In this document: positions 15,588 to 32,897 of the stretch, piece after piece | How the letters are laid out: the number at the start of each line of letters is the position of its first letter | Position numbering within the stretch: the stretch's first letter is position 1 | Notes under the pieces: model-generated | Seen by the model: only the letters and a program-made list of their open reading frames with translations | Databases searched by the model: none | Told to the model about the DNA's origin: nothing | Position numbers and translations under genes: made by a program | Source of the DNA: Natrialba aegyptia DSM 13077 | GTDB lineage: Archaea; Halobacteriota; Halobacteria; Halobacteriales; Natrialbaceae | Direction: 5' to 3' | DNA length: 61,499 nucleotides | NCBI RefSeq assembly: GCF_000337535.1 | Contig: NZ_AOIP01000059.1 | Span: 1-61,499, forward strand

Positions 15588-15893
15588 GACTCGTGTGGAC
15601 ACGCCGGATTGTGCCACGAGTTCAGACCACACAGGTCGTTCGCTCTCAGGAAACGCATCCCCCATCTCGGATGATCTATAATTTATGATCATCCCCCTCC
15701 GCTGAGAATCCCGTGCAACGAGTTCATATCGGGTTCATGAACTGTTGGCGCGAGTTTCGCAGCGTATTTTACACCAGTACACCTGTAATCGTATTGCGGC
15801 GAAATATTGTTGAGAGGCCAACTACTCCGTTTCGTCACAGCGAACAAGCGAGATTTGTTTCCCGGTCCGATCTACTAGAAGTCTTGAGCATCT
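15588..15893. other. Divergent regulatory spacer, livH-type permease to IclR
   Basis: This is the main part of the roughly 410-base spacer between the two divergent genes. It is more AT-rich than the surroundings and encodes nothing I can support. In-frame ATGs upstream of the IclR gene are excluded by the TATA position at 15894-15902. Confidence 0.5.
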
Positions 15894-15902
15894 CTTATAT
15901 AG
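15894..15902 (+). promoter_or_regulatory. TATA box of the second IclR gene
   Basis: CTTATATAG is centred 25 nt before ATG 15923, fixing a leaderless start and rejecting the 70-codon upstream extension. Confidence 0.65.
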
Positions 15903-15922
15903 ATGCGACAGAAAGAATTCCT

Positions 15923-16690
15923 ATGGAAAATCGTGATATCGGTGGACGATCAATCAAATCGGACGAGACACTGTTCGCCATCATCGAATGCCTGAAGCGA
16001 ACGAACAGCGCAGGCGTCACCGAACTCGCCAATCAGCTCGATCTCGCAAAGAGCACCGTTCACAAACACCTCGTGGCGCTCGAACGCCACCGGTACGTGG
16101 TCAAAGAGGACGGTCAGTATCGTCTCGGACTCCAGTTTTTCACCGCCGGCATCCACGTTCGGAACCAGTACGAGGTCTATCACGCCGCCAAGAATCGAGT
16201 CGACAGGCTCGCAGCCGAGACGAACGAGGCGGCCTGGCTCATCGTTCACGAAAACGGGATGGGGATGTTCATCTACGGCGTTGCCCACAACGAGGCGTTC
16301 ACCTTCGACTCGACGATCGGCACGTGGGTCTACTTACACGCGAACTCGGCCGGCAAGGCGATCCTGGCTCACCTCCCCGACGACGAAGTCTCGGCGATCA
16401 TCGACCGCCACGGACTGCCGGCACAAACCGAGAACACGATCACCGATCGCGAGACCCTGCTCGACGAACTCGCGGATGTTAGAGACCGCGGCTACGCGAT
16501 GAACGCACAGGAGGACCTTCGAGGACTGCACGCGATCGCATCGCCGGTCATCACCGACGGCCGGCCGGTCGCGGCCGTCACCATCGCGGGTGCCGCAAAC
16601 CGGGTTACGGAGGAGCGGATCGAAGACGATCTGTCCGAGCGCCTGCTCGAAGCGGTCGACGACGTCGAACTGCGACTGGTGTACGGGTGA
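15923..16690 (+). CDS. IclR-family transcriptional regulator
   Basis: A 255-residue regulator with an N-terminal winged helix (SDETLFAIIECLKRTNS, LAKSTVHKHLVALERHRYV) and an IclR effector domain (ANSAGKAILAHLPDDEV, GLHAIASPVITDGRPVAAV). It sits between the permease operon and the AMP-forming ligase gene, so it is the best candidate regulator of the aromatic island. It is a distant paralogue of the IclR protein at 2342-3112; both share the order EV.AIIDRHGLPA-like segment and TITDRE..LLDEL motif. Confidence 0.92.
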   Translation: MENRDIGGRSIKSDETLFAIIECLKRTNSAGVTELANQLDLAKSTVHKHLVALERHRYVVKEDGQYRLGLQFFTAGIHVRNQYEVYHAAKNRVDRLAAETNEAAWLIVHENGMGMFIYGVAHNEAFTFDSTIGTWVYLHANSAGKAILAHLPDDEVSAIIDRHGLPAQTENTITDRETLLDELADVRDRGYAMNAQEDLRGLHAIASPVITDGRPVAAVTIAGAANRVTEERIEDDLSERLLEAVDDVELRLVYG

Positions 16691-16870: not shown

Positions 16871-18424
16871 ATGAATCAGAATCTTAGAGACGCGTTCGAG
16901 AGAACGGTCCGGTGTCACTCGTCGAAGACGGCGATTATCACCGAGGGTGGACGGTCGCAGACGTACGGGGAGTTGGACGACCGCACGACGCGGCTGGCGA
17001 ACGCGTTGGCCGAGCGCGCTCCGGGTCGACGGCTCGCGACGCTTGCAGTCAACGGGCCGGCGGCGATCGAAGCGATGCTCGCGAGCCAGAAGCGGGGGGT
17101 CGGAAACGTCCAACTCCCGTTTCGGGAGAGCCCCGGCGCGCTGGCGTCGATGCTCGAGCCGACCGATGCGGGCGTTCTCCTCTTCGACGATGCGAACGCC
17201 GAGACGGCGCTTGCGGTACTCGACCGCGTCCCGTTCGAGCGGGCGATACACGCCGGCGAGAGATCGATCGAGCGCGACGGCGTTATCGACTACGACGTAC
17301 TCCTCTCCGACGCCTCGACCGAGCCGGTCGAACCGCAGCCGGAGGGCGAACACGGCGTCTTCTACACGAGCGGGACGACGAGCACGCCGAAGGCCGTGTT
17401 GTTCGACCAGGAACAGCTGTGGTACGGCAGCACGCAAGTCGTCATGGAGATGGGGATCGAACAGACGGACACGGCGCTGGTGACGACGCCGTGGTATCAT
17501 ATGGTCACCTCCGACGCCTGGATCCTTCCGCACATCCAGGCCGGAGCGACGATGGTCGTCCAGTCCGATTTCGATCCGGACGAGGCGCTGACTCTCATCG
17601 AGGAACACGACGTGACGGGAATGCTCGCGGTTCCGACGCAGTTGCACGCGCTGGCGGACGCGCAGGCGGAGATGGAGTACGACATCGAGACGCTCTCGTA
17701 CATCCGCACCGGCGGCTCGATCGTCACGGACGGGCTCATCGAGAAGGCCGCCGAATACCTGACCGACGGCGTGTACAACACCTACGGACTGACCGAAGGC
17801 GGGCCCAACCTGACGTTCGCACACCCCTCCGCCCAGGAGGACCACCCGGGAACGATCGGCACCGAGTCGTTCACGTGTGAACTCCGGGTCGTGGAAGCCG
17901 CCGAACCCGACGAAGATCCCGATCCGACCGCGACCGTCGACCCGGGCGAGACGGGCGAGATACTCATGCGGAATCCGGGAATGTGCGACGGGTACTTAGA
18001 CCGTCCCGAGGAGACCGACCGCCTGTTGGTCGACGGTTGGCTCCGAACCGGCGACTGCGCGACGGTCGACGAGGACGGCTACCTGTACATCGTCGGCCGC
18101 GTCGATAATATGATCGTCAGCGGCGGCGAGAACGTTTATCCGGAAGACGTTGAAGGTATCGTCGAAACGCACGACTCGATCGACGAAGCCGTCGTCGTCG
18201 GCGTCGAAGACGAACGCTGGGGCCACCGCGTCGGTTGCGTCATCTACACCGAAAGCGCGGATGTCGACGTCGACGACCTCGATCAGTTCTGTAAGGACCA
18301 CGACCAGCTCGCGAACTTCAAGCGCCCGCGCGAGTACGCGGTGGCGACCGAGCCGCTCCCCCGAACCGACACCGGAACCGTCGAACGCGAGACGGTCTCG
18401 ACCGAGTTCTTCGGCGGCGAATGA
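16871..18424 (+). CDS. AMP-forming acyl-CoA ligase-like protein lacking the A10 lysine
   Basis: A 517-residue member of the adenylate-forming superfamily. The P-loop-like A3 motif is YTSGTTSTPKAV, A5 is YNTYGLTEGG, A7/A8 is GWLRTGDCATVDEDGYLYIVGR with a VSGGENVYPEDVE hinge. The C-terminal A10 motif, usually P-x4-G-K-x2-R, reads PRTDTGTVER: the catalytic lysine position is Thr503. In characterised ligases this lysine is needed for adenylation, so activity may be lost, rerouted or specialised. Position in the island suggests an aromatic acid substrate (4-hydroxybenzoate or similar). The gene precedes an ADP-forming CoA synthetase pair that could supply the activation step. Confidence 0.9.
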   Translation: MNQNLRDAFERTVRCHSSKTAIITEGGRSQTYGELDDRTTRLANALAERAPGRRLATLAVNGPAAIEAMLASQKRGVGNVQLPFRESPGALASMLEPTDAGVLLFDDANAETALAVLDRVPFERAIHAGERSIERDGVIDYDVLLSDASTEPVEPQPEGEHGVFYTSGTTSTPKAVLFDQEQLWYGSTQVVMEMGIEQTDTALVTTPWYHMVTSDAWILPHIQAGATMVVQSDFDPDEALTLIEEHDVTGMLAVPTQLHALADAQAEMEYDIETLSYIRTGGSIVTDGLIEKAAEYLTDGVYNTYGLTEGGPNLTFAHPSAQEDHPGTIGTESFTCELRVVEAAEPDEDPDPTATVDPGETGEILMRNPGMCDGYLDRPEETDRLLVDGWLRTGDCATVDEDGYLYIVGRVDNMIVSGGENVYPEDVEGIVETHDSIDEAVVVGVEDERWGHRVGCVIYTESADVDVDDLDQFCKDHDQLANFKRPREYAVATEPLPRTDTGTVERETVSTEFFGGE

Positions 18425-18717
18425 CGACGCCTGCATTCATCCCGACGGGACGGTATTTCCGGGCTCGAAACAGGGCGGAACCGGTGTACACCGAACTGCT
18501 GCCGCACGCGTACGATCTGCCCCCGCAGGACGACGGGGCGGCGCGGTAGCGCGCGTTCCTCTTCGATTCGGAAACGGCGACGCCCGTCGGTACGGGCTAC
18601 CGGGGACGACCGACGCGCCCTTCGAGGCGGTCGATGCGGCGACGAGCGGCGCATCGTCATCATCCGAGACTACACGCGGGGAAAACGTTTTCACGCCGTT
18701 GAAACAACACGGTTGCT
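18425..18717. other. Spacer before the ADP-forming acyl-CoA synthetase operon
   Basis: About 290 bases without a convincing gene. A 12-base perfect palindrome, GAAAACGTTTTC, lies at 18681-18692, 26-37 nt upstream of ATG 18718, where a TATA element or operator would be expected. Confidence 0.4.
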
Positions 18718-20106
18718 ATGGCCGTACAAGACGTATTCGACCCCAGCGGAATTGCCGTCGTCGGGGCGTCCGACACGCCGGGAAAGATGGGGTACGAAGC
18801 CGTACAGAACGCGATCGAATTCGACGGGCCGGTCTACCCGGTCAACCCCTCCGCCTCGGGGTCGGTGTTCGGCCGGGAGTTCGTCGACTCGGTGGGAGCC
18901 ATCGACGGTCCCGTCGATCTCGCGCTCGTCTGCGTTCCGGCACCGGTCGTGCCGAGCGTTATCGCGGAGTGCGGCGAGGCGGGAATCGGCGGGGCGGTCA
19001 TCTTCGCCGGCGGGTTCGCCGAAGCGGGAGCGGACGGCGAGCAGTTGCAGGACGAACTCGTCGCGGCGGCGACCGAGGGCGAGAACGAAGTCGACCTCCT
19101 CGGACCGAACACGAGCGGCTTTCTGGTTCCCGACGAAAGCCTGTACGCGACGTTTGCGACGGGCATCGAGACGGTTCCGGCGGGGAACCTGGCGATCGTC
19201 GCACAGAGCGGCGGGCTGGCCTACTCGCTCGCGTTTCAGGCGGAAAATCGCGGCATCGGCGTCTCCGCGATGGTCGGCCTCGGCAACCGAGCGACCGTCG
19301 GCTTCGACGAGGCGATTGCGTACTTCGACGGCGACGACCGGACCGATGCGATAGTGCTACACGTCGAAGGGACGGACGACGCGCGCAGCCTCCTCGAAAC
19401 CTGCCGGGCCGCGGAGACGCCGATCCTCGCCTACAACGTCGGCGAGCAAGACGTCGGCGACTTCGCCGAATCCCACACGGGAGCGCTGACCGGTCGATAC
19501 GAACTCTACGAAGCCGGATTCGCCCAGTACGGCGTGCCGACCGTCCGGTCGACGGCCGAACTCCTCGACGGTGGACGCGTGCTCGCGACCTGTCCCCGAC
19601 CCGACGGGCCGAACGTCGGCGTCGTGACCGCCCAGGCGGGACCGGGGATCGCCATCGCGGACCGACTGAAGGCCGCCGGTGCGACGCTGCCCTCGCTCGA
19701 CCCGGAGACGCAAGCCGTCATCGAAGACATCCTCCCCGGCATCACCTTCTCCGCGAATCCGGTCGACACCGGGCGGCCGATGCCCGCCTTCGGCGACGTC
19801 GTCGCCGCCGTCGCACGCGACGACACCATCGACATCGTCCTCGTCTACGAACTGTACGAGGACGGCATCGGCTACCCGACCGAAACGCTCGAGGAACTCG
19901 TCAGCGCGGTCGACAAACCGATCGTCTTCGCCACCGGCGGCCCCGACGACACCCTGCGCGAGGAACTCCCCGAACTCGAGGCCCTCGGCGTACCGACCTA
20001 CCGAACGCCGGAGGCCGGCGCGGACGCCGTCGCCGCGCTCGTCCGGGCCGCGAAACGAACCCGGGCCCCTGATGCCGTGAGCCCCGGCGCAGAGGTGAGT
20101 CGATGA
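18718..20106 (+). CDS. Acyl-CoA synthetase (ADP-forming), alpha subunit
   Basis: Alpha subunit of an NDP-forming acyl-CoA synthetase, which converts acyl-CoA, ADP and phosphate to acid, CoA and ATP, or the reverse. An N-terminal CoA-binding Rossmann domain (FDPSGIAVVGASDTPGKMG) is followed by the two ligase-CoA domains. The phosphohistidine loop ESHTGALTG around residue 245 and the LLGPNTSGFLVP and GITFSANPVDTGRP segments are intact. It overlaps the beta gene by 4 nt (ATGA). In archaea the family uses acetate, branched-chain acids, arylacetates and benzoate-like acids, so it may activate the aromatic substrate or make ATP from its products. Confidence 0.92.
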   Translation: MAVQDVFDPSGIAVVGASDTPGKMGYEAVQNAIEFDGPVYPVNPSASGSVFGREFVDSVGAIDGPVDLALVCVPAPVVPSVIAECGEAGIGGAVIFAGGFAEAGADGEQLQDELVAAATEGENEVDLLGPNTSGFLVPDESLYATFATGIETVPAGNLAIVAQSGGLAYSLAFQAENRGIGVSAMVGLGNRATVGFDEAIAYFDGDDRTDAIVLHVEGTDDARSLLETCRAAETPILAYNVGEQDVGDFAESHTGALTGRYELYEAGFAQYGVPTVRSTAELLDGGRVLATCPRPDGPNVGVVTAQAGPGIAIADRLKAAGATLPSLDPETQAVIEDILPGITFSANPVDTGRPMPAFGDVVAAVARDDTIDIVLVYELYEDGIGYPTETLEELVSAVDKPIVFATGGPDDTLREELPELEALGVPTYRTPEAGADAVAALVRAAKRTRAPDAVSPGAEVSR

Positions 20107-20858
20107 CCGACCCTCTCACACCCGTCGACGCGGCGTTGACGGATGGCCGGACCGCGCTGACCGAATCCGAAGCGAAAACAGTAATCGCCGATCGGGGGCT
20201 TGTAACCCCGACGGGTGAACTCGTGCACGCTCCCGATGCGGCCGTCGAAGCGGCCGAGCGACTCGGTTTCCCAGTCGTCGCGAAGGTTGCCGCGCCGTCG
20301 ATCCAGCACAAGAGCGAGTGGGCCGGCGGCGTCGGCGTGAACGTGAACCTCGCCGACGCCGATGCCGTTCGAACGGCCACAACGCGAATCTTCGATGCCG
20401 CGGCCGACCGGAATCTCGACGAAGCAGTCCTCATCGAAGAAGGGATCGACATCGAGGCCGGCCTCGAAGTGATCGTCGGTGCCACGCGAGACCCGTCGTT
20501 CGGCCCGACCGTCCTCGTCGGTCTCGGCGGAATCGCCGTCGAAATCCTTCGGGACACGAGCCACAGAATCGCCCCGGTCTCGACGGCGACGGCACTCGAG
20601 ATGACGCGTGAACTCGAGGCCTCGCCGCTGTTCGACGGCTACCGCGGATCTCCGGCAGTCGACCGGGAAGCGGTCGCCGAGGCGATCGTCGCCGTCGGCG
20701 ATCTGGTGGCCGAACGCGAGGCGGTCCGCGAAGTCGAGATCAATCCGCTGCTCGCGAGACCGGACGGAGCGGTCGCCCTCGACGCGCTCGTCTCGCTCGA
20801 CGGCGAACGCCACGACGACGGAGGCCGTCGCAGTAGGCGGAGACAAAACCGGTCGTGA
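20103..20858 (+). CDS. Acyl-CoA synthetase (ADP-forming), beta subunit
   Basis: ATP-grasp subunit, 251 residues, partner of the alpha subunit encoded just upstream. The ATP-grasp fold is visible as LTESEAKTVIADRGL, GFPVVAKVAAPSIQHKSEWAGGV, VLIEEGIDIEAGLEVIVG, PTVLVGLGGIAVEIL and the metal-binding VREVEINPLLA. It holds the second phosphotransfer site. The last 15 residues are very basic (GGRRSRRRQNRS), unlike the acidic surroundings, and may be a frame extension beyond the conserved fold. Confidence 0.92.
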   Translation: MTDPLTPVDAALTDGRTALTESEAKTVIADRGLVTPTGELVHAPDAAVEAAERLGFPVVAKVAAPSIQHKSEWAGGVGVNVNLADADAVRTATTRIFDAAADRNLDEAVLIEEGIDIEAGLEVIVGATRDPSFGPTVLVGLGGIAVEILRDTSHRIAPVSTATALEMTRELEASPLFDGYRGSPAVDREAVAEAIVAVGDLVAEREAVREVEINPLLARPDGAVALDALVSLDGERHDDGGRRSRRRQNRS

Positions 20859-20931: not shown

Positions 20932-21807
20932 CTACTCGTTTAACTGGCTCTTCTCCACGTCGACGTCCTCGAAGGACAGGTCGCGCTCGGTCACGTCGAC
21001 GACCATCGATCCGACGCTCTCGATTTCGGCGTCGATCGTATCCCCACCGGTAATCGCGCTGACGCCTTCCGGCGTGCCGGTAGTGATGACATCGCCGGCT
21101 TCGATCGTCGCGCCGATCGAGGCGTACTCGACGATGTCAGCACAGCTGTAGATCATCTCGCCCGTGTTCTCCTGCTGGCGGGTCTCGCCGTTGAGCTGCA
21201 GTTCCATCTCGAGGTCGTGCGGATCGTCGATTTCGTCCGGCGTCGCGACGCAGGGGCCGATGATCGTGAAGGTGTCGTAGGACTTTCGGTTCGAGCGGTC
21301 CTGATCGCCCCGAACCGAGACGTCGAGCAGGATCGTGTATCCCAGAATGGCGTCCCAGACATCGTCGCTATCGATATCTTTGACGTCCTCACCCATGACG
21401 AACGCGAGTTCGATCTCGTGGTCGACGCGCCGGTCGCTGAACGGTACTTCGATGCCGTCTTCCGGGCCGGCGACGCTCGAGGGGGCCTTGAGGAAGTAGC
21501 CCTTATCCTCGATGGTGAACCACTCCTGGGTGACGATATCTTTGTCCGCGAGGGCCTCCTCGACGTGGTTCTCGTAGTTCAGCGGCGCGGCGATGACCTT
21601 TCCGGGGCGGCGAACGGGTGATTCGATACGTACCTCGCCGCGGTCGTAGTCCGCATCGGCGTCGCTGAACTCGCTCGCGTCGAGATTGCGGGTCGCGTAC
21701 TCCCGGAGCGGGTCGTTCGTCTCGAGACCGAGGCGGTCGGTAACGTCTACGATGCCGTCGTCGGTCAACAGGCCGAGCCTGTCGTCGTTGAATCGGACAA
21801 GTCGCAT
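20932..21807 (-). CDS. Fumarylacetoacetate hydrolase-family protein (probable fumarylpyruvate hydrolase)
   Basis: A 291-residue FAH-fold hydrolase or isomerase. The sequence GKVIAAPLNYENHVEEA, the metal-binding acid cluster around DHEIELAFVMG, GYTILLDVSVRGDQ and the TTGTPEGVSAI loop are diagnostic. Next to gentisate dioxygenase it most likely cleaves fumarylpyruvate, or maleylpyruvate directly, to pyruvate plus fumarate or malate. The TATA box at 21832-21837 fixes the leaderless start at ATG 21807, not the longer frame. It is divergent from the gentisate dioxygenase gene with only about 170 bases between. Confidence 0.92.
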   Translation of the reverse strand: MRLVRFNDDRLGLLTDDGIVDVTDRLGLETNDPLREYATRNLDASEFSDADADYDRGEVRIESPVRRPGKVIAAPLNYENHVEEALADKDIVTQEWFTIEDKGYFLKAPSSVAGPEDGIEVPFSDRRVDHEIELAFVMGEDVKDIDSDDVWDAILGYTILLDVSVRGDQDRSNRKSYDTFTIIGPCVATPDEIDDPHDLEMELQLNGETRQQENTGEMIYSCADIVEYASIGATIEAGDVITTGTPEGVSAITGGDTIDAEIESVGSMVVDVTERDLSFEDVDVEKSQLNE

Positions 21808-21831
21808 AGTACATGCACTGCGATACGCCCA

Positions 21832-21837
21832 CATAAA
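21832..21837 (-). promoter_or_regulatory. TATA box of the FAH-family gene
   Basis: TTTATG on the minus strand, centred 27 nt before ATG 21807. Confidence 0.65.
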
Positions 21838-21944
21838 TCATCCTTTCTCGTCTACTGACCCGTTCGGCGGCTCAGTGAGACACAGACCGGAGGCGAACAG
21901 CCGCGGTTGCAGCCATCGACGACGGCGACAGTGCCTCCAACACA

Positions 21945-21951
21945 CTTATGG
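21945..21951 (+). promoter_or_regulatory. TATA box of gentisate 1,2-dioxygenase
   Basis: CTTATGG is centred 27 nt before ATG 21975. The ATG inside this box (21948) is therefore not a start. The two divergent TATA boxes are about 110 bases apart, room for one shared operator. Confidence 0.6.
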
Positions 21952-21974
21952 TATCGTTCATCAAACATGCGACT

Positions 21975-23054
21975 ATGGCAGAACAAGAGCCAGAGGAACT
22001 CCTCGAGTTGAGTTCCGACACGCGGAGCACCCTCGAGCAACACAACCTCCGCCCGCTCTGGGAAGTAGAAGACGACATGGGGCATCTCCTCGACGACCTC
22101 GAAGCGGACATCTGGAAGTGGGAGGACATCGAGGCCGCTATCGACGGCATCGAGGCGGACGTGCCGATCGCCGACCTCCCGCCGGGCTTCCAGCGACGGG
22201 TTGCGGTGCCGATCAACGCCGAACACGCGATTTCGAACACGATCTACGTCGGCGTGCAGACGGTCTCGCCCGGCGAAACCGCACCCTCCCACCGCCACGC
22301 AGCAAGCGCCCTTCGGTTCACCATCGACGGCCACGAAGACATGAAGACGGTCGTCGCCGGCGAGGAGTTCCCCATGAAGGACAATGACCTCGTCACCACG
22401 CCACAGTGGGAGTGGCACGACCACATCAACGACTCCGACGAAACGGCCGCCTGGCTCGACGTGCTCGACCTGCCGCTGTTCCTGGATACGCTGAACAACA
22501 CGCACGTCTTCGAGAATCACGAACTCGAACGACAGCCGGTGACGAAGTCGCAGGGATACTGGGCCTCCCAGTACGGGCGCGGCCGCCCCGCCGGCGAGCG
22601 AAAAGACGGCTCCATTCCCGGACCGTTCGAGGGTAATCAGGAGCCGACGCCGCCGTATCGCTTCGGGTGGGACGAGATGGAGGAGTCGCTCCGTCAACGC
22701 GCGGACAATGACGAACCGGACCCCTACGACGGCTACAGCCTCGCGTACGTCAATCCGGCCACGGGGGAGGAGCCGCTGTTCCCGACCATGTCCTTCCGGG
22801 CGCAGCTGCTAAACGACGGGCCGACGGACGCACACTTCCACAACGCGACGGAAGTCTACTTCGTCATAGAAGGTGAGGGCGCGACCCACGTCGACGGCGA
22901 GGCCCTCGAATGGGGACAGTGGGACATCTTTGTCGTGCCGCCGGACGCACCCCATCACCACGAACCGGACGACGAAGCGATCCTCCTCGGTATGACCGAC
23001 CGACCGATTCTGGAGGCGATGAACTTCTACGCCGAAGCCGGTATCGATGGCTAA
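21975..23054 (+). CDS. Gentisate 1,2-dioxygenase
   Basis: Ring-cleaving Fe(II) bicupin dioxygenase that opens gentisate to maleylpyruvate. The 359-residue protein starts MAEQEPEELLELS. The first cupin carries the metal motif PSHRHAASALRFTIDG near residue 100 and the second the related DAHFHNATEVYFVIEGEG near 285. The conserved middle segment (LDLPLFLDTLNN, then an arginine-rich linker) is typical of the gentisate/1-hydroxy-2-naphthoate family. Haloarchaeal gentisate dioxygenases are known biochemically from Haloferax and Haloarcula growing on aromatic acids. It is divergent from the FAH hydrolase gene. Confidence 0.95.
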   Translation: MAEQEPEELLELSSDTRSTLEQHNLRPLWEVEDDMGHLLDDLEADIWKWEDIEAAIDGIEADVPIADLPPGFQRRVAVPINAEHAISNTIYVGVQTVSPGETAPSHRHAASALRFTIDGHEDMKTVVAGEEFPMKDNDLVTTPQWEWHDHINDSDETAAWLDVLDLPLFLDTLNNTHVFENHELERQPVTKSQGYWASQYGRGRPAGERKDGSIPGPFEGNQEPTPPYRFGWDEMEESLRQRADNDEPDPYDGYSLAYVNPATGEEPLFPTMSFRAQLLNDGPTDAHFHNATEVYFVIEGEGATHVDGEALEWGQWDIFVVPPDAPHHHEPDDEAILLGMTDRPILEAMNFYAEAGIDG

Positions 23055-23145
23055 TTCGATCCGGACTCGGAACTCGTCCGTGCAAGTCCCACTCCCCACC
23101 TCGCGCATGGGTCCGCAGTGGCTGGCGGCAAACGAGGCAGTACTC

Positions 23146-23151
23146 TTATAG
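23146..23151 (+). promoter_or_regulatory. TATA box of the zinc-ribbon microprotein
   Basis: TTATAG (within CTCTTATAG) is centred 27 nt before ATG 23175, so the microprotein has its own promoter and a leaderless mRNA. Confidence 0.65.
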
Positions 23152-23174
23152 ATTGTCGCCCCTAGCGTTTCCGT

Positions 23175-23360
23175 ATGGCCGAGTTCGAGAATCCGTACGT
23201 CGAGGAGGATCCGTTCGTCCAAGCGCACTTCGACTGTCTGGACTGCGGCGGAAAGCTCTGGGAATACGCGGTCCAGGGACAGATGGTCTGTGAGGAGTGT
23301 TACGGCGTCTTCCGGTCGGAGCAAGTGTTTGACGCCGCTGTCGAACGGACTGCAGACTGA
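23175..23360 (+). CDS. Zinc-ribbon microprotein
   Basis: A 61-residue acidic protein with two CxxC knuckles: CLDCGGKLW near residue 21 and CEECYGVF near 40, a pattern that binds one zinc. Such small CxxC proteins are numerous in haloarchaea and mostly of unknown function. A TATA box at the correct spacing and codon use like its neighbours make this a real gene. It lies between gentisate dioxygenase and an aldehyde dehydrogenase, so a role in the aromatic pathway (regulator, iron or zinc chaperone) is possible but not shown. Confidence 0.85.
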   Translation: MAEFENPYVEEDPFVQAHFDCLDCGGKLWEYAVQGQMVCEECYGVFRSEQVFDAAVERTAD

Positions 23361-23587
23361 GACCGACTCCAGACTCCAATTACGTGTCCGCGTGCGCCGG
23401 CGTTTCGAGTCGAGTTCACCGTCGCATTCGACCGGGTGCTCGAGTTCAGTGTCGGGTGCGTCGTCGCCCTGAGCGGCCGCCGCGACGGGGGTTCGAAATC
23501 GCGGGCGGCGGATAGAGCCGCCGTTGAGCCGGTAACACCGGTGTCCACTCTGCAAACATTGATCTGCTTGCCGCCGAATGGAATGGT

Positions 23588-25087
23588 ATGGGGCAACAGA
23601 TGGAGTCTCCGTATGGCATCGATGCGGACTGGAATCGTCTGTACATCGACGGAGAGTGGCGGGAAGCGGCGAGTGGGGCGACGATCGACGTGGCGGATCC
23701 GTCGACGCGAGAGACCGTCGCGACGGTTCCGGCCGGAACTGAGACCGACGTCGACGCGGCCTACGAAGCAGCCGCCGAGGCACAGGACGAGTGGGCACAA
23801 ACGCCGCCGGCCCGACGGCAAGAAGTCGTCCAGGAGATGCTGGGGCTGCTCGATGAACACCGCGAGCAGATCATCGACCTGCTGGCCCACGAGGCCGGCG
23901 GGACGCGGGGAATGGGCGAAACCTCTCTCCAGCTAGCATCGGATCAAGCCGCAGAAGCGGCGACGCTGCCCCGCCGAATGAAAGGCGAGCACGCCGCGTC
24001 GAACGTTCCCGGCAAAGAGAACATCGTTCAGCGCGTTCCCAAGGGCGTCGTCACGGTGATTTCGCCGTGGAACTTCCCGCTGAATCTCTCGATGCGCGCC
24101 GTCGCGCCGGCGATCGCCGCGGGCAACGCGGTCGTCCTCAAACCCGCGACGAACACGCCGATCGTCGGCGGCCTCCTGTTCGCACGCCTGTTCGAAGCCG
24201 CCGGACTGCCCGAAGGCGTGTTAAACGTCGTCACCGGCCGCGGCTCCGAGATCGGCGATCGCGTCGCGAGCCACCCCGAGAGCGACGTCGTCGCCTTCAC
24301 CGGTTCCACCGCGGTCGGTCGCCGCGTCGCCGCGGCCGCCGGCGAGAACCTCGCGGTCCCTGCGATGGAACTCGGCGGCAACAACGCCCACGTCGTCACC
24401 GACGAGGCCGATATCGACGCAGCCGTCGACGCCGCCGCGTTCGGAAGCTTCGTCCACCAGGGGCAGGTGTGTATCTCCATCAATCGCCACCTCGTCCACG
24501 AGGACGTTTACGACGAGTACGTCGCGAAACTGACCGACCGCGCCGAGCGTCTACCGGTCGGCAGCGCGCACGAGGAGACGGTCGTCGGCCCGATCATCGA
24601 CGAATCCCAGCGCGACGAAATGCTCGAGTACGTCGATCGGACGATCGACGCCGGCGCAACCCTCGAAACCGGCGGCGAAACGGTCGAACTGGAGGGCGTC
24701 GACGACTCGCTGGTCGTCGCGCCGACCGTGCTCTCGGGCGTGACGAACGACATGCCGGCCGCCTGCAACGAGCACTTCGGTCCCATCGCGCCGGTCATCC
24801 CGTTCTCGACCGTCGACGAAGCAGTTGAACTCGCAAACGCCACGGCGTACGGCCTGTCGGGTTCGGTTCACGCCGGCGACGTCGGCGCGGGCAAACGCAT
24901 CGCCGAACGGTTAGAGACCGGCATGGTCCACGTCAACGACCAACCGATCAACGACGAGGCGCACGTTCCGTTCGGCGGCACCGGTGCCTCTGGCGTCGGC
25001 GGCTATAACAGCGAGGCGTTCCTGGACGAGATCACCGAGCAAAAGTGGATCTCGCTCCAGCACGAACCCCGCGAGTTCCCGTTCTGA
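23588..25087 (+). CDS. NAD(P)-dependent aldehyde dehydrogenase
   Basis: A 499-residue member of the aldehyde dehydrogenase superfamily. The catalytic cysteine lies in GQVCISINR, the general-base glutamate in MELGGNN, and the cofactor-binding stretch in FTGSTAVGRRV; the N-terminal SPWNFPLNLS is also conserved. The position suggests oxidation of an aromatic aldehyde (4-hydroxybenzaldehyde, vanillin or salicylaldehyde) feeding the island, as in benzaldehyde/vanillin dehydrogenases. The start has no clear TATA box; a second ATG twelve codons... is not needed for the conserved fold, and MESPYG at 23600 is a plausible alternative. Confidence 0.9.
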   Translation: MGQQMESPYGIDADWNRLYIDGEWREAASGATIDVADPSTRETVATVPAGTETDVDAAYEAAAEAQDEWAQTPPARRQEVVQEMLGLLDEHREQIIDLLAHEAGGTRGMGETSLQLASDQAAEAATLPRRMKGEHAASNVPGKENIVQRVPKGVVTVISPWNFPLNLSMRAVAPAIAAGNAVVLKPATNTPIVGGLLFARLFEAAGLPEGVLNVVTGRGSEIGDRVASHPESDVVAFTGSTAVGRRVAAAAGENLAVPAMELGGNNAHVVTDEADIDAAVDAAAFGSFVHQGQVCISINRHLVHEDVYDEYVAKLTDRAERLPVGSAHEETVVGPIIDESQRDEMLEYVDRTIDAGATLETGGETVELEGVDDSLVVAPTVLSGVTNDMPAACNEHFGPIAPVIPFSTVDEAVELANATAYGLSGSVHAGDVGAGKRIAERLETGMVHVNDQPINDEAHVPFGGTGASGVGGYNSEAFLDEITEQKWISLQHEPREFPF

Positions 25088-25214
25088 TCGGCGAGCACAA
25101 GACAGAGCGGACGACGAAAAACGGGCGGTCGGCGAGCCCGCTTTCTCACGGGGCAGCGGACCGGCACACGAGGCGGTACCCGAACCGGACCGACGCGGAC
25201 GACAATGGAATGGA

Positions 25215-25220
25215 TTTACA
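25215..25220 (+). promoter_or_regulatory. TATA box of the small unknown gene
   Basis: TTTACA is centred about 27 nt before ATG 25244 and argues against the longer in-frame start at 25205, which lies upstream of the box. Confidence 0.55.
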
Positions 25221-25243
25221 ATACCCGACCGCCAAGTGAGCCC

Positions 25244-25567
25244 ATGGCACTCGAAAGCGACGTGAGAGCAGCCGCCGAACAACGTGACGACCTTCCGACC
25301 GCCGCAGACGTACACGACCCCGATACCGAGATTCCACTCACCGACCTGTTCGATGCAGAGTTCGTCCAGGCCCACACCGAGTTCAGTTCGTTCGACGACC
25401 TGGTTGCGGCGAGTCCCAGTCCCGCCGACGCCGCGGCTGAACTCGAGACCGTTCCGGAGGGCGAGTGGGACGAGTTCGTCGCGGAGACGACCGACTTCGC
25501 AGACGAGAAGGCGTTGGTGCTGGCTGCGCGCGATCACTGGGTCGGCAAGCAACTCGAACTCGTCTGA
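25244..25567 (+). CDS. Small acidic protein of unknown function
   Basis: A 107-residue, strongly acidic soluble protein (MALESDVRAAAEQRDDLP start, DHWVGKQLELV end). I do not recognise a family. It has no membrane segment, cysteine or obvious catalytic motif. A correctly spaced TATA box and haloarchaeal codon use support it. It lies between the aldehyde dehydrogenase and the flavin hydroxylase, on the strand opposite to the latter, so it is one of two candidates in the island for a missing small component such as an isomerase or accessory protein. Confidence 0.7.
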   Translation: MALESDVRAAAEQRDDLPTAADVHDPDTEIPLTDLFDAEFVQAHTEFSSFDDLVAASPSPADAAAELETVPEGEWDEFVAETTDFADEKALVLAARDHWVGKQLELV

Positions 25568-25663: not shown

Positions 25664-26893
25664 TCAGTAGTTCCCGGTCGACACGATCGGCGGCGTTCCG
25701 TGCGGACCGTAGGGAGCGTCGTCGAGCCACTCGCCCGCAGTCTCGAACTGATCCGCAAGCGAGGCCGCTGCCTCCTTCTGTAACACCGTCACCGGATCCT
25801 CGCCCTGGAGGTATTCGAGCGCCTGTCCCGCCGCGTCGAGATTGAACTCGGCGGCTTTCTCGCGCCGGGCCGCGTACAGTTCGACCTCGTCGCGGACGAC
25901 CGCGTCGGTCTTCGCATCGATAGCGGCCGCAATCGCCGAAGCTGCCTCGTCCGCGTCGGCGATGCCCGAGTTCATCCCGCGAGCGCCGAAGGGCGCGAGC
26001 AGGTGCGCCGCTTCACCGGCGAGCAGCACCCGGCGGTCGTCGTCGATGAAGGTGTCCGCCATCACCTGGAGGAAGTAGTAACTCGAGACCCACTGCAGGT
26101 TGTCCTCGTAGCGCTCGCCCATGATGTCGCGGATGAACTCGCGCATCCGCTCTTCGCTGCTGAGTTCCTCGGGGTCGTCGCCCTCGATGCACTGAATGTC
26201 GAGTCGCCAGCCGCCGGTGAAGGGGACGAGCAACACGTTGCGGCCGTCGGCCGCGGGCGCGTCGTAGTGGAATACCCGCTCGAGTTCGCGCTGTTCGTCT
26301 TCGATCTCCTCGATGTCGGCGATGAGGAAGGCGTTCTCGGACTGGTCGCCCTCGAAGTTCGCGCCGATCTCCTTGCGAACGGTCGAGCCGCCGCCGTCCG
26401 CGCCGATCAGGAACTCGCCGCGCCATTCGCGGCCGTCGGCCGTCTCGACGCGGACGCCGTCGGGTGAGGACTCGACGATATCGACCTCGGCATCCCAGTG
26501 GATGTCGATGCCGGCCTCGGCAAGCGCGTCGTGCATGTAGTCCTCGGTGACGACCTGCGGGACGCTGGTAAAGTGTGGAATGTCACCCGAGCCGCCGGGG
26601 GAGTCGTACGTTCGGCTGAACACTTCCGCGCCCCGGAAGAGCGTGCGTCGCGTCGGCCAGACGAGGCCCTCGTCGACGAGGTCGGTGCCGAGTCCCGGAT
26701 GAACTCGTTCGAGCGTCCGGAGCGTGGATCCGTGGACGTAGATGGCGCGACTGCCGGAACGATCCCGGTCTGCAGATTCGGCTTCGAGAATCGTTGCGTC
26801 GATTCCTCGCGCGTGTAAGGCGAGTGCTGCGCTCATTCCGACCGGTCCAGCGCCGGCTATCAGTACGGGAGATGCCGTCGTATCACCGCTCAT
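25664..26893 (-). CDS. FAD-dependent aromatic hydroxylase
   Basis: A 409-residue flavoprotein monooxygenase of the p-hydroxybenzoate hydroxylase/MhpA class. The Rossmann motif is GAGPVGMSAALALHARG, the DG motif LIGADGGGSTVRKEIG, and the third flavin motif reads LLAGEAAHLLAPFGARGMNSG, where the usual GD of GDAAH is GE. Next to gentisate dioxygenase it should make gentisate or gentisyl-CoA: options are 3-hydroxybenzoate 6-hydroxylase, salicylate 5-hydroxylase-like, or 4-hydroxybenzoyl-CoA 1-hydroxylase with NIH shift. The CoA ligase and thioesterase in the island favour the CoA route. A TATA box at 26919-26925 supports the ATG start. Confidence 0.9.
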   Translation of the reverse strand: MSGDTTASPVLIAGAGPVGMSAALALHARGIDATILEAESADRDRSGSRAIYVHGSTLRTLERVHPGLGTDLVDEGLVWPTRRTLFRGAEVFSRTYDSPGGSGDIPHFTSVPQVVTEDYMHDALAEAGIDIHWDAEVDIVESSPDGVRVETADGREWRGEFLIGADGGGSTVRKEIGANFEGDQSENAFLIADIEEIEDEQRELERVFHYDAPAADGRNVLLVPFTGGWRLDIQCIEGDDPEELSSEERMREFIRDIMGERYEDNLQWVSSYYFLQVMADTFIDDDRRVLLAGEAAHLLAPFGARGMNSGIADADEAASAIAAAIDAKTDAVVRDEVELYAARREKAAEFNLDAAGQALEYLQGEDPVTVLQKEAAASLADQFETAGEWLDDAPYGPHGTPPIVSTGNY

Positions 26894-26918
26894 ACTACGA
26901 GTGGTTAGGGCAAACCGT

Positions 26919-26925
26919 GATAATT
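26919..26925 (-). promoter_or_regulatory. TATA box of the FAD hydroxylase
   Basis: The minus strand reads AATTATC, centred about 29 nt before ATG 26893. Confidence 0.5.
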
Positions 26926-27450
26926 GTTGTGGTCGCTCACTGCGTCCGAGTAAGGGTGGGGACACCCTGCCGACGAGATCTGAAGCACGCACGCGGCCGT
27001 AGTATGTACGGTATCCAGCGATCCAGCGCGAGCCACCCGGAAGGAGAGACCAGTGGCGGCGTTCTATGGGCGGAACGGGCCGAGTCCGGCGGGACTGGCC
27101 CGAGCGAGTTACACGCTGTGCGTTACAGCGGTATGTGCGTAAAACCTGACCGTTTGTCCGATGGTAACTGCTCTCGGATGATATCCACGCACATACGACG
27201 CGTGTATTACAAAAATTCAAAATAAGTCCATCTAGATTCCGATTTCACAGATTCAATCCGCATTAGCGAGAATTGTAATCCGTGGTCCGACGGAGACGCG
27301 TTCACCGTTCCTCACGATCGAGAACACGTACACCGGTCGTCTGTGCGATCAGGTCGACGTCGGTTCTCGGCTCGGCGTGAGAAGACAATGTGTGACGAAA
27401 CGACAGTATTGGTGTAAGTTGGTCAGTAACAATCACGCATGATCGATGAC
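26926..27450. other. Long non-coding spacer between hydroxylase and GATE-domain gene
   Basis: About 525 bases between divergent genes. GC content falls towards 27190-27260 and again near 27450. Short frames exist (for example 27003-27225 on the plus strand) but have no promoter, no recognisable family and mixed codon use. No RNA gene or repeat was seen. Confidence 0.5.
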
Positions 27451-27457
27451 TTTATTG
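27451..27457 (+). promoter_or_regulatory. TATA box of the GATE-domain membrane protein
   Basis: TTTATTG is centred 27 nt before ATG 27481, so the 14-codon upstream extension in the same frame is not translated. Confidence 0.6.
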
Positions 27458-27480
27458 TTAATGAAAAATACCCTCGGACC

Positions 27481-29732: not shown

Positions 29733-29774
29733 GTTGTGAAACGTGTGATGGCCTATCGAAGTGATCAGTTGAGG

Positions 29775-32700
29775 ATGACTGCGAGTTCAAATACTGTATT
29801 CGATGCGGGAGGCGATGCCAGCGACGAAATACCCGATCAACGGGCCGCCGACGAGTTCGTCGCGGGCGAGGTGGATCGACCCGCGCTCGTCGCCGATCTT
29901 CGCGGGCGACTCGAGGGCGACGTTCGGTTCGACTCCTACACGCGCCAGTTGTACGCGACCGACGCGAGCGCCTACGAGATGACGCCGATCGGCGTCGTCT
30001 TCCCGGTGTCGACCGACGACGTCGCCGAAACCGTCGCCTATTGCGCACGGCGAGAGATTCCCGTCTTGCCGCGGGGCGGCGGGACGAGTCTCGCGGGACA
30101 GGCGGTCAACGAAGCCGTCGTGCTCGATTTCACCCGCTACATGGACGGCGTCGAAGCGATCGATCCCGACGCGCGTCGAGCGCGCGTCCAGGCGGGAACC
30201 GTCCTCGGCGAACTCAACGACGAACTCGCGCCGCACGGCCTGAAGTTCGCCCCCGACCCGGCCGCCGGGGACCGCAGCGTCATCGGCGGTGCGATCGGCA
30301 ACAACTCGACGGGAGCACACTCGCTGGTCTACGGCAAGACCGACGCCTACGTCGAAGAATGCGAGGTCGTGCTGGCCGACGGGACGGTCGCGACGCTCGG
30401 CGAGACGGCCGTCGACGAGATTCGTTTGGCGGCCGATTCCGAGGGAACCATCCTCGAGCAGGTGTACGCTGAACTCGTCCGGATCATCGACGAGGAAAGC
30501 GACGAGGTACGAGAACGGTTTCCCGACCTGAAGCGCAACGTCTCGGGGTACAACCTGGACGTGCTCGTCGAGGAGGCCGAGAGCGGAACGGTCAACCTCG
30601 CGCGGCTACTGGCGGGCAGCGAGGGGACCCTCGCCGTCGTCACCGAGGCCGAGGTGTCGCTCGAACCCGTCCCCGAGACGAAGGCCGTCTCGCTGCTGTT
30701 CTACGAGAGCGTCCTCGACGCCGTGACCGACGTGCAGCACGTCCTCGAACACGAGCCGGCCGCGGTCGAACTCATCGACGACGTGCTCCTCGGGCTGGCC
30801 CGCGAGACGACCGAGTTCGAGGAGGCGGCGTCGCTCGTTCCGGCCGACGCCGAGGCGGGACTGCTGATCGAGTTCTACGCCGCGGACGACGAGCACGGGC
30901 GCGAGCGGACGGCCGGGCTCCTCGCGGACAGGGTTCCGGGGACGGATACCGAGGCGGAACCACCCGCCGAACGCCCGGAAATCGACCAAACGCTCGCGTT
31001 CGCCGGACTGGAAGCACACGACGAGGACGAGCGGGACATGTTCTGGACGCTTCGGAAGTCCGGCCTGCCGATCCTCCTCTCGCGGACCTCCGACGAAAAG
31101 CACATCAGCTTCATCGAAGACTGTGCGATTCCGCCGGCGCACCTCCCGGAGTTCGTCGAGCGCTTCCAGGCGCTGCTCACCGAGAAAGACCGCGACGACG
31201 ACGCCGCGTTCTACGCCCACGCCGGCCCCGGCGTCCTCCACGTCCGCCCGCTGGTCAACACGAAGGCCGCGACGGACCGCGAGGACATGGAAGCCATCGC
31301 GGACGAAGTGACGGATATGGTCGTCGAGTTCGGTGGCAGCGTCTCGGGCGAACACGGCGACGGCCACGCACGCACCCAGTGGAACCGCAAGCTCTACGGC
31401 GACGACCTCTGGCAGGCGTTCCGCGACCTGAAGACCGCGTTCGACCCCGACTGGCTGCTCAACCCGGGCAACGTCTGTGGCGACCACGACATGACCGAGC
31501 ACCTCCGGTACGACGACGACTACGAGTACGACGCCGGGTTCGAACCGTCGATGAACTGGGAGAACGAGAACGGCATGCAGGGCATGGTCGAACTCTGTCA
31601 CGGCTGCGGCGGCTGTCGGGGCTCCCAGGAGACCACCGGCGGCGTCATGTGTCCGACCTACCGGGCCGCAGACGAGGAGATCACCGCCACACGAGGGCGG
31701 GCGAACCTCCTTCGGCAGGCGATGAGCGGCGACCTGCCCGACGATCCGACCGACGACGAGTTCGCCGAGGAGGTGCTCGATCTCTGTATCGGCTGCAAGG
31801 GTTGCAAGCGAGACTGCCCGAGCGGTGTCGACGTCGCGAAGCTCAAAACCGAGGTCATGCACGAGCGCCACCGGGAACACGGGGCGAGCCTTCGCGACCG
31901 ACTCTTCGCGAACTTCGATACGCTCGCGGCCGTCGGCAGCGCGATGGCACCGGTTTCGAACCTGCTGAACTCGTTTCCGGGGTCTGGCGCGATCGCAGAG
32001 AAGACAATCGGAATCGCGAGCGATCGGTCGCTTCCCGCGTTCAGCCGCGAGACGCTACAGGATTGGTTCGAGAAGCGAGGCGGCGCGGCCGCCTCGAAGA
32101 AGCGGGCGGAGCGAGCCTCTCGGGCGGACGCGGCGGGTGCCGAACGAAAAGCCGTTCTCTTCGCGGATACGTACACGAACTACAGCCACCCGGAAGTCGG
32201 CAAGGCCGCGGTGCGCGTTCTCGAGGCCGCCGGCGTCCGCGTCGACGTGGCCGACCGGACCGACAGCGGCCGTCCGGCGCTGTCGAAGGGATTCGTCGAC
32301 AACGCGCGCGACGCGATGGAGACGAACATCGCGGAACTGGAGCCGCGCATTCGTGACGGCTGGGACGTCGTCCTCGCGGAACCCTCCGACGCCGTGATGT
32401 TCCAATCCGACAGCCTCGATCTCTGCTCGGGCCGCGCGGTCGAATCGCTCGCGGCGAACTCCTACGGCGTCTGCGAGTACGTCGACACGTTCCGACTCGA
32501 CGAGAACGTCGAGTGGGAGCCCCCCGCCGAGTCGCTCGCGTACCACGGGCACTGCCACCAGAAGGCCGAAAAGAAGGATCACCACGCCGTCGGCGTCCTT
32601 CGGCGGGCGGGGTACGCGGTCGATCCGCTCGACTCGGGCTGCTGTGGTATGGCCGGCACGTTCGGCTACGAGGCGGAACACTACTCACTGAGCCGCTCGA

Positions 32701-32897
32701 TCGGCGACATCCTCTTCGAGCAGATCGAAGACAGCGGTGCCGATGTCGTCACTGCCCCGGGAACGTCCTGCCGAACGCAACTCGGCGACGGGCGAATCGA
32801 ACCGGTCCCGGCCGACAGCTCGTTCGCCGGCAGCGCGCTGGACCGCACGGAACCCCCGACGCCGGTTGAACTCCTCGCGCACGCTGTGGCGCGATAG
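29775..32897 (+). CDS. FAD-linked oxidase fused to Fe-S/CCG domains (D-lactate or glycolate dehydrogenase-like)
   Basis: A 1040-residue fusion that should oxidise a 2-hydroxy acid and pass electrons to the quinone pool. The N-terminal half is a PCMH FAD-binding domain (PRGGGTSLAGQAVNEAVVLDF in part, GNNSTGAHSLVYGKT) plus an FAD-oxidase C-terminal domain (FYAHAGPGVLHVRPL, SGEHGDGHARTQW). The C-terminal half has ferredoxin-type clusters (CHGCGGCRGS, CIGCKGCKRDCP) and heterodisulfide-reductase CCG motifs (HGHCHQKAEKK, DSGCCGMAGTFGY). In bacteria these parts are separate GlcD/GlcF or Dld subunits; haloarchaea and some bacteria fuse them. Haloarchaeal members are usually called D-lactate dehydrogenase; glycolate is equally possible. 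Confidence 0.9.
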   Translation: MTASSNTVFDAGGDASDEIPDQRAADEFVAGEVDRPALVADLRGRLEGDVRFDSYTRQLYATDASAYEMTPIGVVFPVSTDDVAETVAYCARREIPVLPRGGGTSLAGQAVNEAVVLDFTRYMDGVEAIDPDARRARVQAGTVLGELNDELAPHGLKFAPDPAAGDRSVIGGAIGNNSTGAHSLVYGKTDAYVEECEVVLADGTVATLGETAVDEIRLAADSEGTILEQVYAELVRIIDEESDEVRERFPDLKRNVSGYNLDVLVEEAESGTVNLARLLAGSEGTLAVVTEAEVSLEPVPETKAVSLLFYESVLDAVTDVQHVLEHEPAAVELIDDVLLGLARETTEFEEAASLVPADAEAGLLIEFYAADDEHGRERTAGLLADRVPGTDTEAEPPAERPEIDQTLAFAGLEAHDEDERDMFWTLRKSGLPILLSRTSDEKHISFIEDCAIPPAHLPEFVERFQALLTEKDRDDDAAFYAHAGPGVLHVRPLVNTKAATDREDMEAIADEVTDMVVEFGGSVSGEHGDGHARTQWNRKLYGDDLWQAFRDLKTAFDPDWLLNPGNVCGDHDMTEHLRYDDDYEYDAGFEPSMNWENENGMQGMVELCHGCGGCRGSQETTGGVMCPTYRAADEEITATRGRANLLRQAMSGDLPDDPTDDEFAEEVLDLCIGCKGCKRDCPSGVDVAKLKTEVMHERHREHGASLRDRLFANFDTLAAVGSAMAPVSNLLNSFPGSGAIAEKTIGIASDRSLPAFSRETLQDWFEKRGGAAASKKRAERASRADAAGAERKAVLFADTYTNYSHPEVGKAAVRVLEAAGVRVDVADRTDSGRPALSKGFVDNARDAMETNIAELEPRIRDGWDVVLAEPSDAVMFQSDSLDLCSGRAVESLAANSYGVCEYVDTFRLDENVEWEPPAESLAYHGHCHQKAEKKDHHAVGVLRRAGYAVDPLDSGCCGMAGTFGYEAEHYSLSRSIGDILFEQIEDSGADVVTAPGTSCRTQLGDGRIEPVPADSSFAGSALDRTEPPTPVELLAHAVAR

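Follow-up and report, generated by a model that had tools for sequence, protein, structure and literature searches.

A haloarchaeal gentisate cluster with a candidate maleylpyruvate hydrolase and a zinc-ribbon microprotein linked to its dioxygenase gene

Core genes of the gentisate island

The DNA analysed here, referred to as the window, is a stretch of 61,499 nucleotides from Natrialba aegyptia DSM 13077 (contig NZ_AOIP01000059.1). From 15.7 to 27.2 kb it carries a gentisate island with genes for an IclR regulator, ligases, a FAH-family hydrolase (FAH), a gentisate dioxygenase (GDO), a zinc-ribbon microprotein, an aldehyde dehydrogenase, an acidic protein and a FAD monooxygenase. In our judgement the cluster probably encodes a gentisate pathway of the direct-hydrolysis type, in which the zinc ribbon is a companion of GDO and the acidic protein goes with the FAD monooxygenase. 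Gene content, linkage, co-occurrence and closest relatives were observed, and from these we infer every catalytic activity as well as the job of the zinc ribbon. The features on which this reading turns are the following:

20932..21807, minus strand: long FAH-family hydrolase, 291 aa from MRLVRF, proposed maleylpyruvate hydrolase (FAA_hydrolase domain PF01557, 180 bits)
21936..21950, plus strand: promoter element TCCAACACACTTATG (BRE/TATA) of GDO, at -39 to -25 from the ATG at 21975 (column conservation in 61 upstream regions)
21975..23054, plus strand: predicted gentisate 1,2-dioxygenase (GDO), a bicupin for ring cleavage to maleylpyruvate (Cupin_2, two stretches)
23145..23151, plus strand: CTTATAG, the TATA box of the zinc-ribbon gene, at a distance that fits a leaderless transcript (A/T at -27/-26 in 60 of 60 upstream regions)
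23175..23360, plus strand: zinc-ribbon microprotein, 61 residues, CxxC-x14-CxxC (linkage to GDO, conservation)

A preliminary description of this DNA had placed FAH, GDO and two small genes, the zinc ribbon and the acidic protein, at these positions. All four were found there, with slightly corrected starts for three of them. Alignment to solved relatives makes 21807 the likely start of FAH rather than the open reading frame limit at 21834, and comparison of upstream regions (61 of 64 loci) makes 21975 the likely start of GDO rather than the limit at 21948. The acidic protein, first described with 107 residues, probably starts at 25205 rather than at 25244, its relatives beginning with MEWIY or MEWVY.

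The cluster was compared with a survey of 392 genomes of the host order, to which all genome-wide counts refer unless stated otherwise. A GDO match was obtained in 63 of these genomes, and 65 GDO-type loci were compared. One genome, G347, is included in the counts of 63 genomes and left out of the counts of 64 loci; its GDO-like gene, 46% identical and accompanied by neither a zinc ribbon nor an orthologue of FAH, was set apart as a paralogue of other function. This divergent cupin enzyme (L157, G347:C7, 8937-9995) has two PaaA_PaaC-family proteins and one of the RidA family as neighbours and is possibly another ring-cleaving enzyme. A second, broken GDO piece in genome G381 (60% identical, with internal stops, at a contig end off which its start runs) is not among the loci compared; no zinc ribbon was found beside this piece, which the contig end truncates. 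A Sagittula stretch with a relative of GDO and neither FAH nor maiA was left out of all counts.

Two cupin domains are present in GDO and its nearest solved relatives are gentisate dioxygenases: all six solved sequences matched bear the name gentisate 1,2-dioxygenase, the best of them labelled 'putative'. The equivalog model TIGR02272 gave about 207 bits, which does not reach its cut-off of 442. Three control genomes likewise match this model and none passes the cut-off, among them Corynebacterium glutamicum, which grows on gentisate according to PMC3392265. The name GDO denotes membership of a family in this text, and gentisate is the presumed substrate. We regard it as very improbable that the enzyme acts on another substrate, such as 5-aminosalicylate or salicylate, in which case the question of maleylpyruvate would fall away. 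A 5-aminosalicylate dioxygenase model does score about as well as the gentisate model (214 and 208 bits, both far below cut-off), but the six solved matches all carry the gentisate name, and the gentisate route is known in haloarchaea, whose aromatic degradation through gentisate is reviewed in PMC4005966. In Haloferax volcanii, the annotated gentisate dioxygenase HVO_A0090 is given with +13.4 among the proteins changed under iron starvation in PMC11349517.

Isomerase search and the long FAH-family hydrolase

The preliminary description had seen a gentisate pathway without a recognisable maleylpyruvate isomerase, and had considered that a known isomerase family might be present elsewhere in the genome. 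The first point is borne out by model searches of whole genomes. No zeta-class maiA (TIGR01262) scored above the cut-off in the 63 GDO genomes, the source genome included; 28 of them gave weak matches, the best of 23 bits. MDMPI_N (PF11716) was likewise above the cut-off in 0 of 63, with two weak matches, and DinB_2 (PF12867) gave nothing in a sample of 80 genomes, 40 with GDO and the source genome among them. Thus, for the families searched, the absence of an isomerase holds for whole genomes, and no maiA, MDMPI_N or DinB_2 above cut-off was met away from the cluster. Queries with bacterial maiA, MDMPI-like and 2-hydroxychromene-2-carboxylate isomerase sequences gave no match in the 65 GDO-type loci at E <= 1e-4.

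The nearest solved relative of the window FAH is 6JVV/6JVW, a 'maleylpyruvate hydrolase' (E 2e-48, the next match having 3.7e-36). Identity to 6JVV is 36% over 286 columns, nearly the full length; the HExE and RKxYDTF stretches are shared and the N-terminal part is aligned. The match to 4MAQ, a 'putative fumarylpyruvate hydrolase', is far weaker (E 1.7e-19). The order is reversed for the short FAH that adjoins maiA in Actibacterium, which served as a control (4MAQ 7.6e-78, 6JVV 5.7e-22). An orthologue of the window FAH (about 67-100% identical, E <= 1e-105) is present in 62 of the 63 GDO genomes, the exception being G347, and in none of 80 sampled genomes without GDO, in which the best match is a 41% paralogue (1.7e-43). 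FAH is therefore found together with GDO where, in the genomes and loci searched, no known isomerase gene was found. In a tree of FAH sequences the short FAH is set apart with support 100/100 and three paralogue branches are long; the haloarchaeal, bacterial long and 6JVV sequences fall on one side of a branch with support 49/96.

Relatives of the long FAH were viewed in 14 bacterial plasmid contexts, chosen among the long-FAH matches listed, with 6-8 kb on each side; the gene tables of the plasmids are incomplete. A GDO homologue is present in 12 of these contexts and is the next listed gene to FAH in nine. Sequence searches located maiA in two of the 14 (L267 and L270), both times directly after a second, short FAH, and 10 of the 12 contexts with GDO show no maiA within the viewed flanks. 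The Shinella context is a minimal set of gtdA, long FAH and 3-hydroxybenzoate 6-monooxygenase; the Bradyrhizobium context has long FAH, cupin, leuC and leuD, and that of Novosphingobium has long FAH near leuC-leuD, without GDO. The arrangement of leuC-leuD beside a long FAH has the shape of a maleate-hydratase branch. Six further loci have a short FAH: the four with GDO all carry an adjoining maiA and the two without GDO carry none. The classical glutathione route, with a short FAH of the fumarylpyruvate hydrolase type and maiA, shares the GDO step and the hydrolase superfamily with the cluster described here. It differs in that the short FAH (about 235 aa) pairs with maiA in bacteria, whereas the haloarchaeal loci have a long FAH and, in all 65, no relative of maiA.

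Two options had been offered in the preliminary description, direct cleavage of maleylpyruvate by the FAH-family protein and isomerisation by an unrecognised protein. The likeness to 6JVV, the distribution of the orthologue (62 of 63 versus 0 of 80) and the bacterial contexts support the former; the latter is not needed and is the less likely of the two. GDO would open gentisate to maleylpyruvate, and the long FAH would cut maleylpyruvate itself into maleate and pyruvate, so that no isomerase would be required. Most likely, then, the missing isomerase is something ordinary, a known bacterial route in an archaeon. Liu is reported to have described, in 2013, the direct hydrolysis of maleylpyruvate by HbzF of Pseudomonas alcaligenes, and a LeuCD-like maleate hydratase, HbzIJ, is said to be linked to this route. 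The hydrolase of P. alcaligenes takes ring-opened gentisate to maleate and pyruvate without an isomerase, the same route as is proposed here for the archaeon. The two systems differ in host, which is an archaeon here, and in that the hydratase HbzIJ has no relative in the haloarchaeal loci (LeuCD queries); they are likened by route, not by the sequence of HbzF. Direct hydrolysis of maleylpyruvate by HbzF is put to use in PMC5658364. If the haloarchaeal hydrolase takes maleylpyruvate directly, a gap in archaeal aromatic degradation closes and thiol-dependent isomerases become unnecessary; the direct route also suggests which bacterial FAH sequences belong to it.

Since the hydrolase would make maleate, some GDO genomes should show signs of maleate use. 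Maleate cis-trans isomerase was searched for in 384 newly drawn genomes, so that up to 8 of the 392 are possibly outside this set. The family PF17645 alone was too blunt a marker (20 of 40 GDO genomes versus 9 of 40 others), and the search was narrowed to one clade with at least 66% identity, the next matches having 40% or less. This clade occurs in eight of the 384 genomes, all eight with GDO, which fits the expectation. Its best solved relative is maleate cis-trans isomerase (4FQ5/4FQ7, 3.2e-78), and for four of the eight copies a GDO or FAH gene is at most 10 kb away. These data support maleate as a likely intermediate in the eight species, in which it would enter central metabolism through the isomerase. 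The clade was not found in the source genome, which has only a 36% relative away from the cluster; that protein is closer to maleate isomerase (1.9e-26) than to arylmalonate decarboxylase (1e-18). For species without the clade, a candidate path would be hydration of maleate to D-malate by the housekeeping isopropylmalate isomerase, after which the YdiJ-like dehydrogenase of the cluster would oxidise the D-malate.

In G222, one of these eight genomes (L258, G222:C33, 4101-4514 and 11062-15526), an FAH copy, an amidohydrolase, a Rieske protein and the maleate isomerase stand in a row. A decayed zinc-ribbon-like stretch near this row gave a weak match (E 0.008). Row and stretch are perhaps what remains of a second gentisate cluster.

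Several points weigh against the interpretation favoured here. The name of 6JVV/6JVW is the depositors' label, and the grouping of the haloarchaeal and bacterial long FAH with 6JVV is not firm, because its branch has support 49/96. On two bacterial plasmids (L267, L270) long FAH, GDO and maiA are found together, and a 2-hydroxychromene-2-carboxylate isomerase lies near the long FAH in L267 and L271; the bacterial isomerase counts, moreover, cover the 6-8 kb flanks and not the rest of the genomes. The maleate isomerase clade was found in just eight genomes, though GDO genomes should process maleate, and the 65 GDO-type loci contain no relative of LeuCD. Finally, the action on the enzyme that we propose below for the zinc ribbon has linkage and conservation as its sole basis.

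Some of these points bear on a rival explanation, in which fumarylpyruvate would be made by an unlinked, unrecognised isomerase or by a cell thiol, and FAH would be a fumarylpyruvate hydrolase. The cell thiol proposed for such thiol-driven isomerisation is gamma-glutamylcysteine. That most GDO genomes are without a recognisable maleate-specific enzyme would agree with this explanation, as would the fact that activities within the FAH family are hard to separate by sequence. We nevertheless judge it unlikely, given the negative searches for maiA and MDMPI_N in the 63 GDO genomes and for DinB_2 in 40, the greater nearness of FAH to 'maleylpyruvate hydrolase' than to 'fumarylpyruvate hydrolase', and the lack of a linked maiA in 10 of 12 bacterial contexts with long FAH and GDO.

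The zinc ribbon beside the dioxygenase gene

Strong matches to the zinc ribbon (E <= 3.7e-23) were obtained in 62 of the 392 genomes, which are exactly the GDO genomes minus G347, and in none of the other 330. Three weak matches, 36-42% along some 40 residues, came from genomes without GDO and were not counted as orthologues. At all 64 loci the gene lies on the same strand as GDO, with a gap of 42 to 292 bp between the matched stretches; it is upstream of GDO in 49 loci and downstream in 15. Its median distance to FAH is 3.0 kb (60 loci). The conservation of the gene next to GDO in other genomes, raised as a question in the preliminary description, is therefore observed in 64 of 64 loci, together with its absence, as a strong match, from the 330 genomes without this GDO. 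Among 72,556 plasmid records, some of whose species overlap the genome set, 24 carry the zinc ribbon, a set identical to that with the haloarchaeal GDO and FAH; a further 176 records match GDO but gave no zinc ribbon at E <= 0.001. The gene is labelled hypothetical protein in 22 of the 24 records, and the other two have no listed gene at its position. A scan of 84,980 species with two conserved peptides, which finds close relatives only, returned 46 loci, all of them haloarchaeal. The protein of Natrialba asiatica DSM 12278 is 100% identical, and the zinc ribbon is also present in Haloferax sulfurifontis and Haloferax denitrificans.

Both small genes are real, as the preliminary description had supposed: orthologues of the acidic protein are present in 48 of 392 genomes, and the zinc ribbon has a median dN/dS of 0.15 (59 sequences), below that of GDO (0.18) and FAH (0.24), and 19 invariant columns among 22 aligned sequences. 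The invariant columns include the four Cys residues as well as F4, N6, Y8, H18, W29, E30 and Y31. C21, C24, C39 and C42 are present in 60 of 60 zinc ribbons, and G25 in 58 of 60. The protein agrees with the definition of CPxCG zinc-finger microproteins in PMC2253796, having fewer than 100 residues and a CxxCG motif with a second Cys/His pair 7-40 residues away; according to PMC11241148, several such microproteins bind no zinc. An AlphaFold model has the shape of a zinc ribbon (mean pLDDT 75). A structure search yielded nothing at E <= 0.001, the hits resembling RNA polymerase or TFIIS being non-significant, and the TFIIB zinc-binding model matched the sequence weakly, below cut-off (E 0.0012).

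The gene seems to have a leaderless-type promoter of its own, with A or T at positions -27 and -26 in all 60 upstream regions. The promoter motif of GDO is present, in a loose form, in 44 of 61 upstream regions and occurs as a single copy in the window. The two promoters are separate and conserved; the genes thus stay side by side even though each seems to be promoted on its own. The conserved element upstream of GDO is close to TCCANYACACTTATG; it is longer than a plain TATA box, with more conserved bases at -17, -11 and -10.

The separate promoters could also be read as a sign that the zinc ribbon, as a small regulator, controls transcription of gdo next to it, in the way known from Brz and bop in Halobacterium. 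High levels of bop mRNA depend on Brz, a small zinc-finger protein whose gene lies immediately upstream of bop and points the same way (PMC2253796). Like the zinc ribbon, Brz of Halobacterium salinarum and the haloarchaeal CPxCG microproteins are small, have paired Cys motifs and are encoded beside and along their partner gene (PMC2253796, PMC11241148). Brz differs in having Cys and His in its motif, and the zinc ribbon goes with a catabolic dioxygenase. The subthreshold likeness to the TFIIB model would suit a regulator as well. A homologue of the IclR regulator is, however, already present in 41 of 65 loci, the order of the two genes varies (15 of 64 downstream, 49 of 64 upstream), and the invariant N-terminus and the LWEY strand look like a protein-docking surface. 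We regard a regulatory role as a tentative alternative.

The distance correlation of the zinc ribbon is the same with GDO and with FAH (r 0.416 each) and does not tell the partners apart; GDO is taken as the partner because adjacency separates it from FAH. Linkage and conservation indicate that the zinc ribbon is most likely a dedicated companion of the haloarchaeal GDO that would act on the enzyme, by metal loading, reactivation or assembly. A more specific version, which we put forward with reserve, is that haloarchaeal GDO is an obligate two-part system, in which the zinc-ribbon (or, with iron, rubredoxin-like) microprotein would load or re-reduce the iron of the enzyme. XylT-type ferredoxins do such a job for some bacterial ring-cleaving dioxygenases. 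If GDO is indeed such a system, this would be, to our knowledge, the first microprotein partner of a cupin dioxygenase.

A third role, isomerisation of maleylpyruvate by the zinc ribbon itself, with a zinc-held Cys thiolate in place of glutathione or mycothiol, appears most doubtful. GDO, zinc ribbon and FAH are the three cluster genes shown in all 62 genomes, one for each textbook step, and mycothiol-dependent isomerases are zinc enzymes. Yet the four Cys residues appear to have a structural role, a protein of 54-61 residues offers scant space for an active site, the gene stays with GDO (<=292 bp) and not with FAH (median 3.0 kb), and the direct route would need no isomerase. On balance, we consider action on the enzyme somewhat more likely than a Brz-like role and much more likely than isomerisation. 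The GDO-linked zinc ribbon offers a clear and testable example of a microprotein that goes with one particular enzyme, and is the new part of the present finding. A literature search found no paper joining zinc finger, gentisate and Haloferax; a 2006 paper on the expression of haloarchaeal gdoA, outside that search, may mention a neighbouring ORF.

On the bacterial plasmids L267 (9825-10148) and L270 (14388-14750) a gene for a 2Fe-2S protein lies directly before gtdA; it is a possible counterpart of a GDO helper.

Upper-pathway and neighbouring genes

The remaining genes in and near the island are the following:

15713..16690, plus strand: IclR-family regulator (PF01614, 124 bits; homologue in 41 of 65 loci)
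16871..20858, plus strand: AMP-dependent CoA ligase and two ADP-forming acyl-CoA synthetase subunits, predicted upper pathway (homologues in 46, 53 and 51 of 65 loci)
23588..25087, plus strand: aldehyde dehydrogenase, peripheral to the core (PF00171, 539 bits; homologue in 24 of 65 GDO-type loci)
25205..25567, plus strand: acidic protein, 120 aa from the conserved start (neighbour of the FAD monooxygenase, no more than 400 bp away, in 22 of 24 loci having both)
25664..27220, minus strand: FAD-dependent monooxygenase, predicted upper pathway (PF01494, 152 bits)
29736..32897, plus strand: YdiJ-like FAD/Fe-S D-2-hydroxyacid dehydrogenase (NF049975, 511 bits, below the cut-off of 1350; homologue in 26 of 65 loci)

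For the FAD monooxygenase, the extended N-terminal part of the reading frame is doubtful, because the FAD domain starts near 26.87 kb.

Strong orthologues of the acidic protein (E <= 1.4e-27) occur in 48 genomes, 47 of them with GDO. Its genes, which the preliminary description had left unexplained, are linked to the FAD monooxygenase: of the 24 GDO loci with both genes, 22 have them at most 400 bp apart and 21 have them on opposite strands. With weaker relatives included (E <= 0.001), 117 of 392 genomes give a match. The acidic protein is encoded beside an aldehyde dehydrogenase and a FAD monooxygenase in G202 as well, a genome without a GDO match. A single-sequence structure model was poor and uninformative (mean pLDDT 58). 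The acidic protein belongs to the upper pathway, with the FAD monooxygenase, and owing to this tie and to its presence in G202 it was rejected as a candidate for the isomerase step and as a partner of GDO.

A 4HBT-type thioesterase recurs with the CoA ligase and the FAD monooxygenase in 45 of 65 GDO-type loci (for instance L294, 8999-9400). This set of genes resembles an upper pathway from 4-hydroxybenzoyl-CoA to gentisate (NIH shift). The YdiJ-like dehydrogenase is a possible D-malate oxidase, if maleate is hydrated. A Gate-domain membrane protein is encoded at 27439-28941 of the window, and homologues of it are present in the maleate isomerase locus in five of the eight species with that clade (L259, L261, L263, L264 and L265), so that it is perhaps a carrier of dicarboxylates or aromatic acids.

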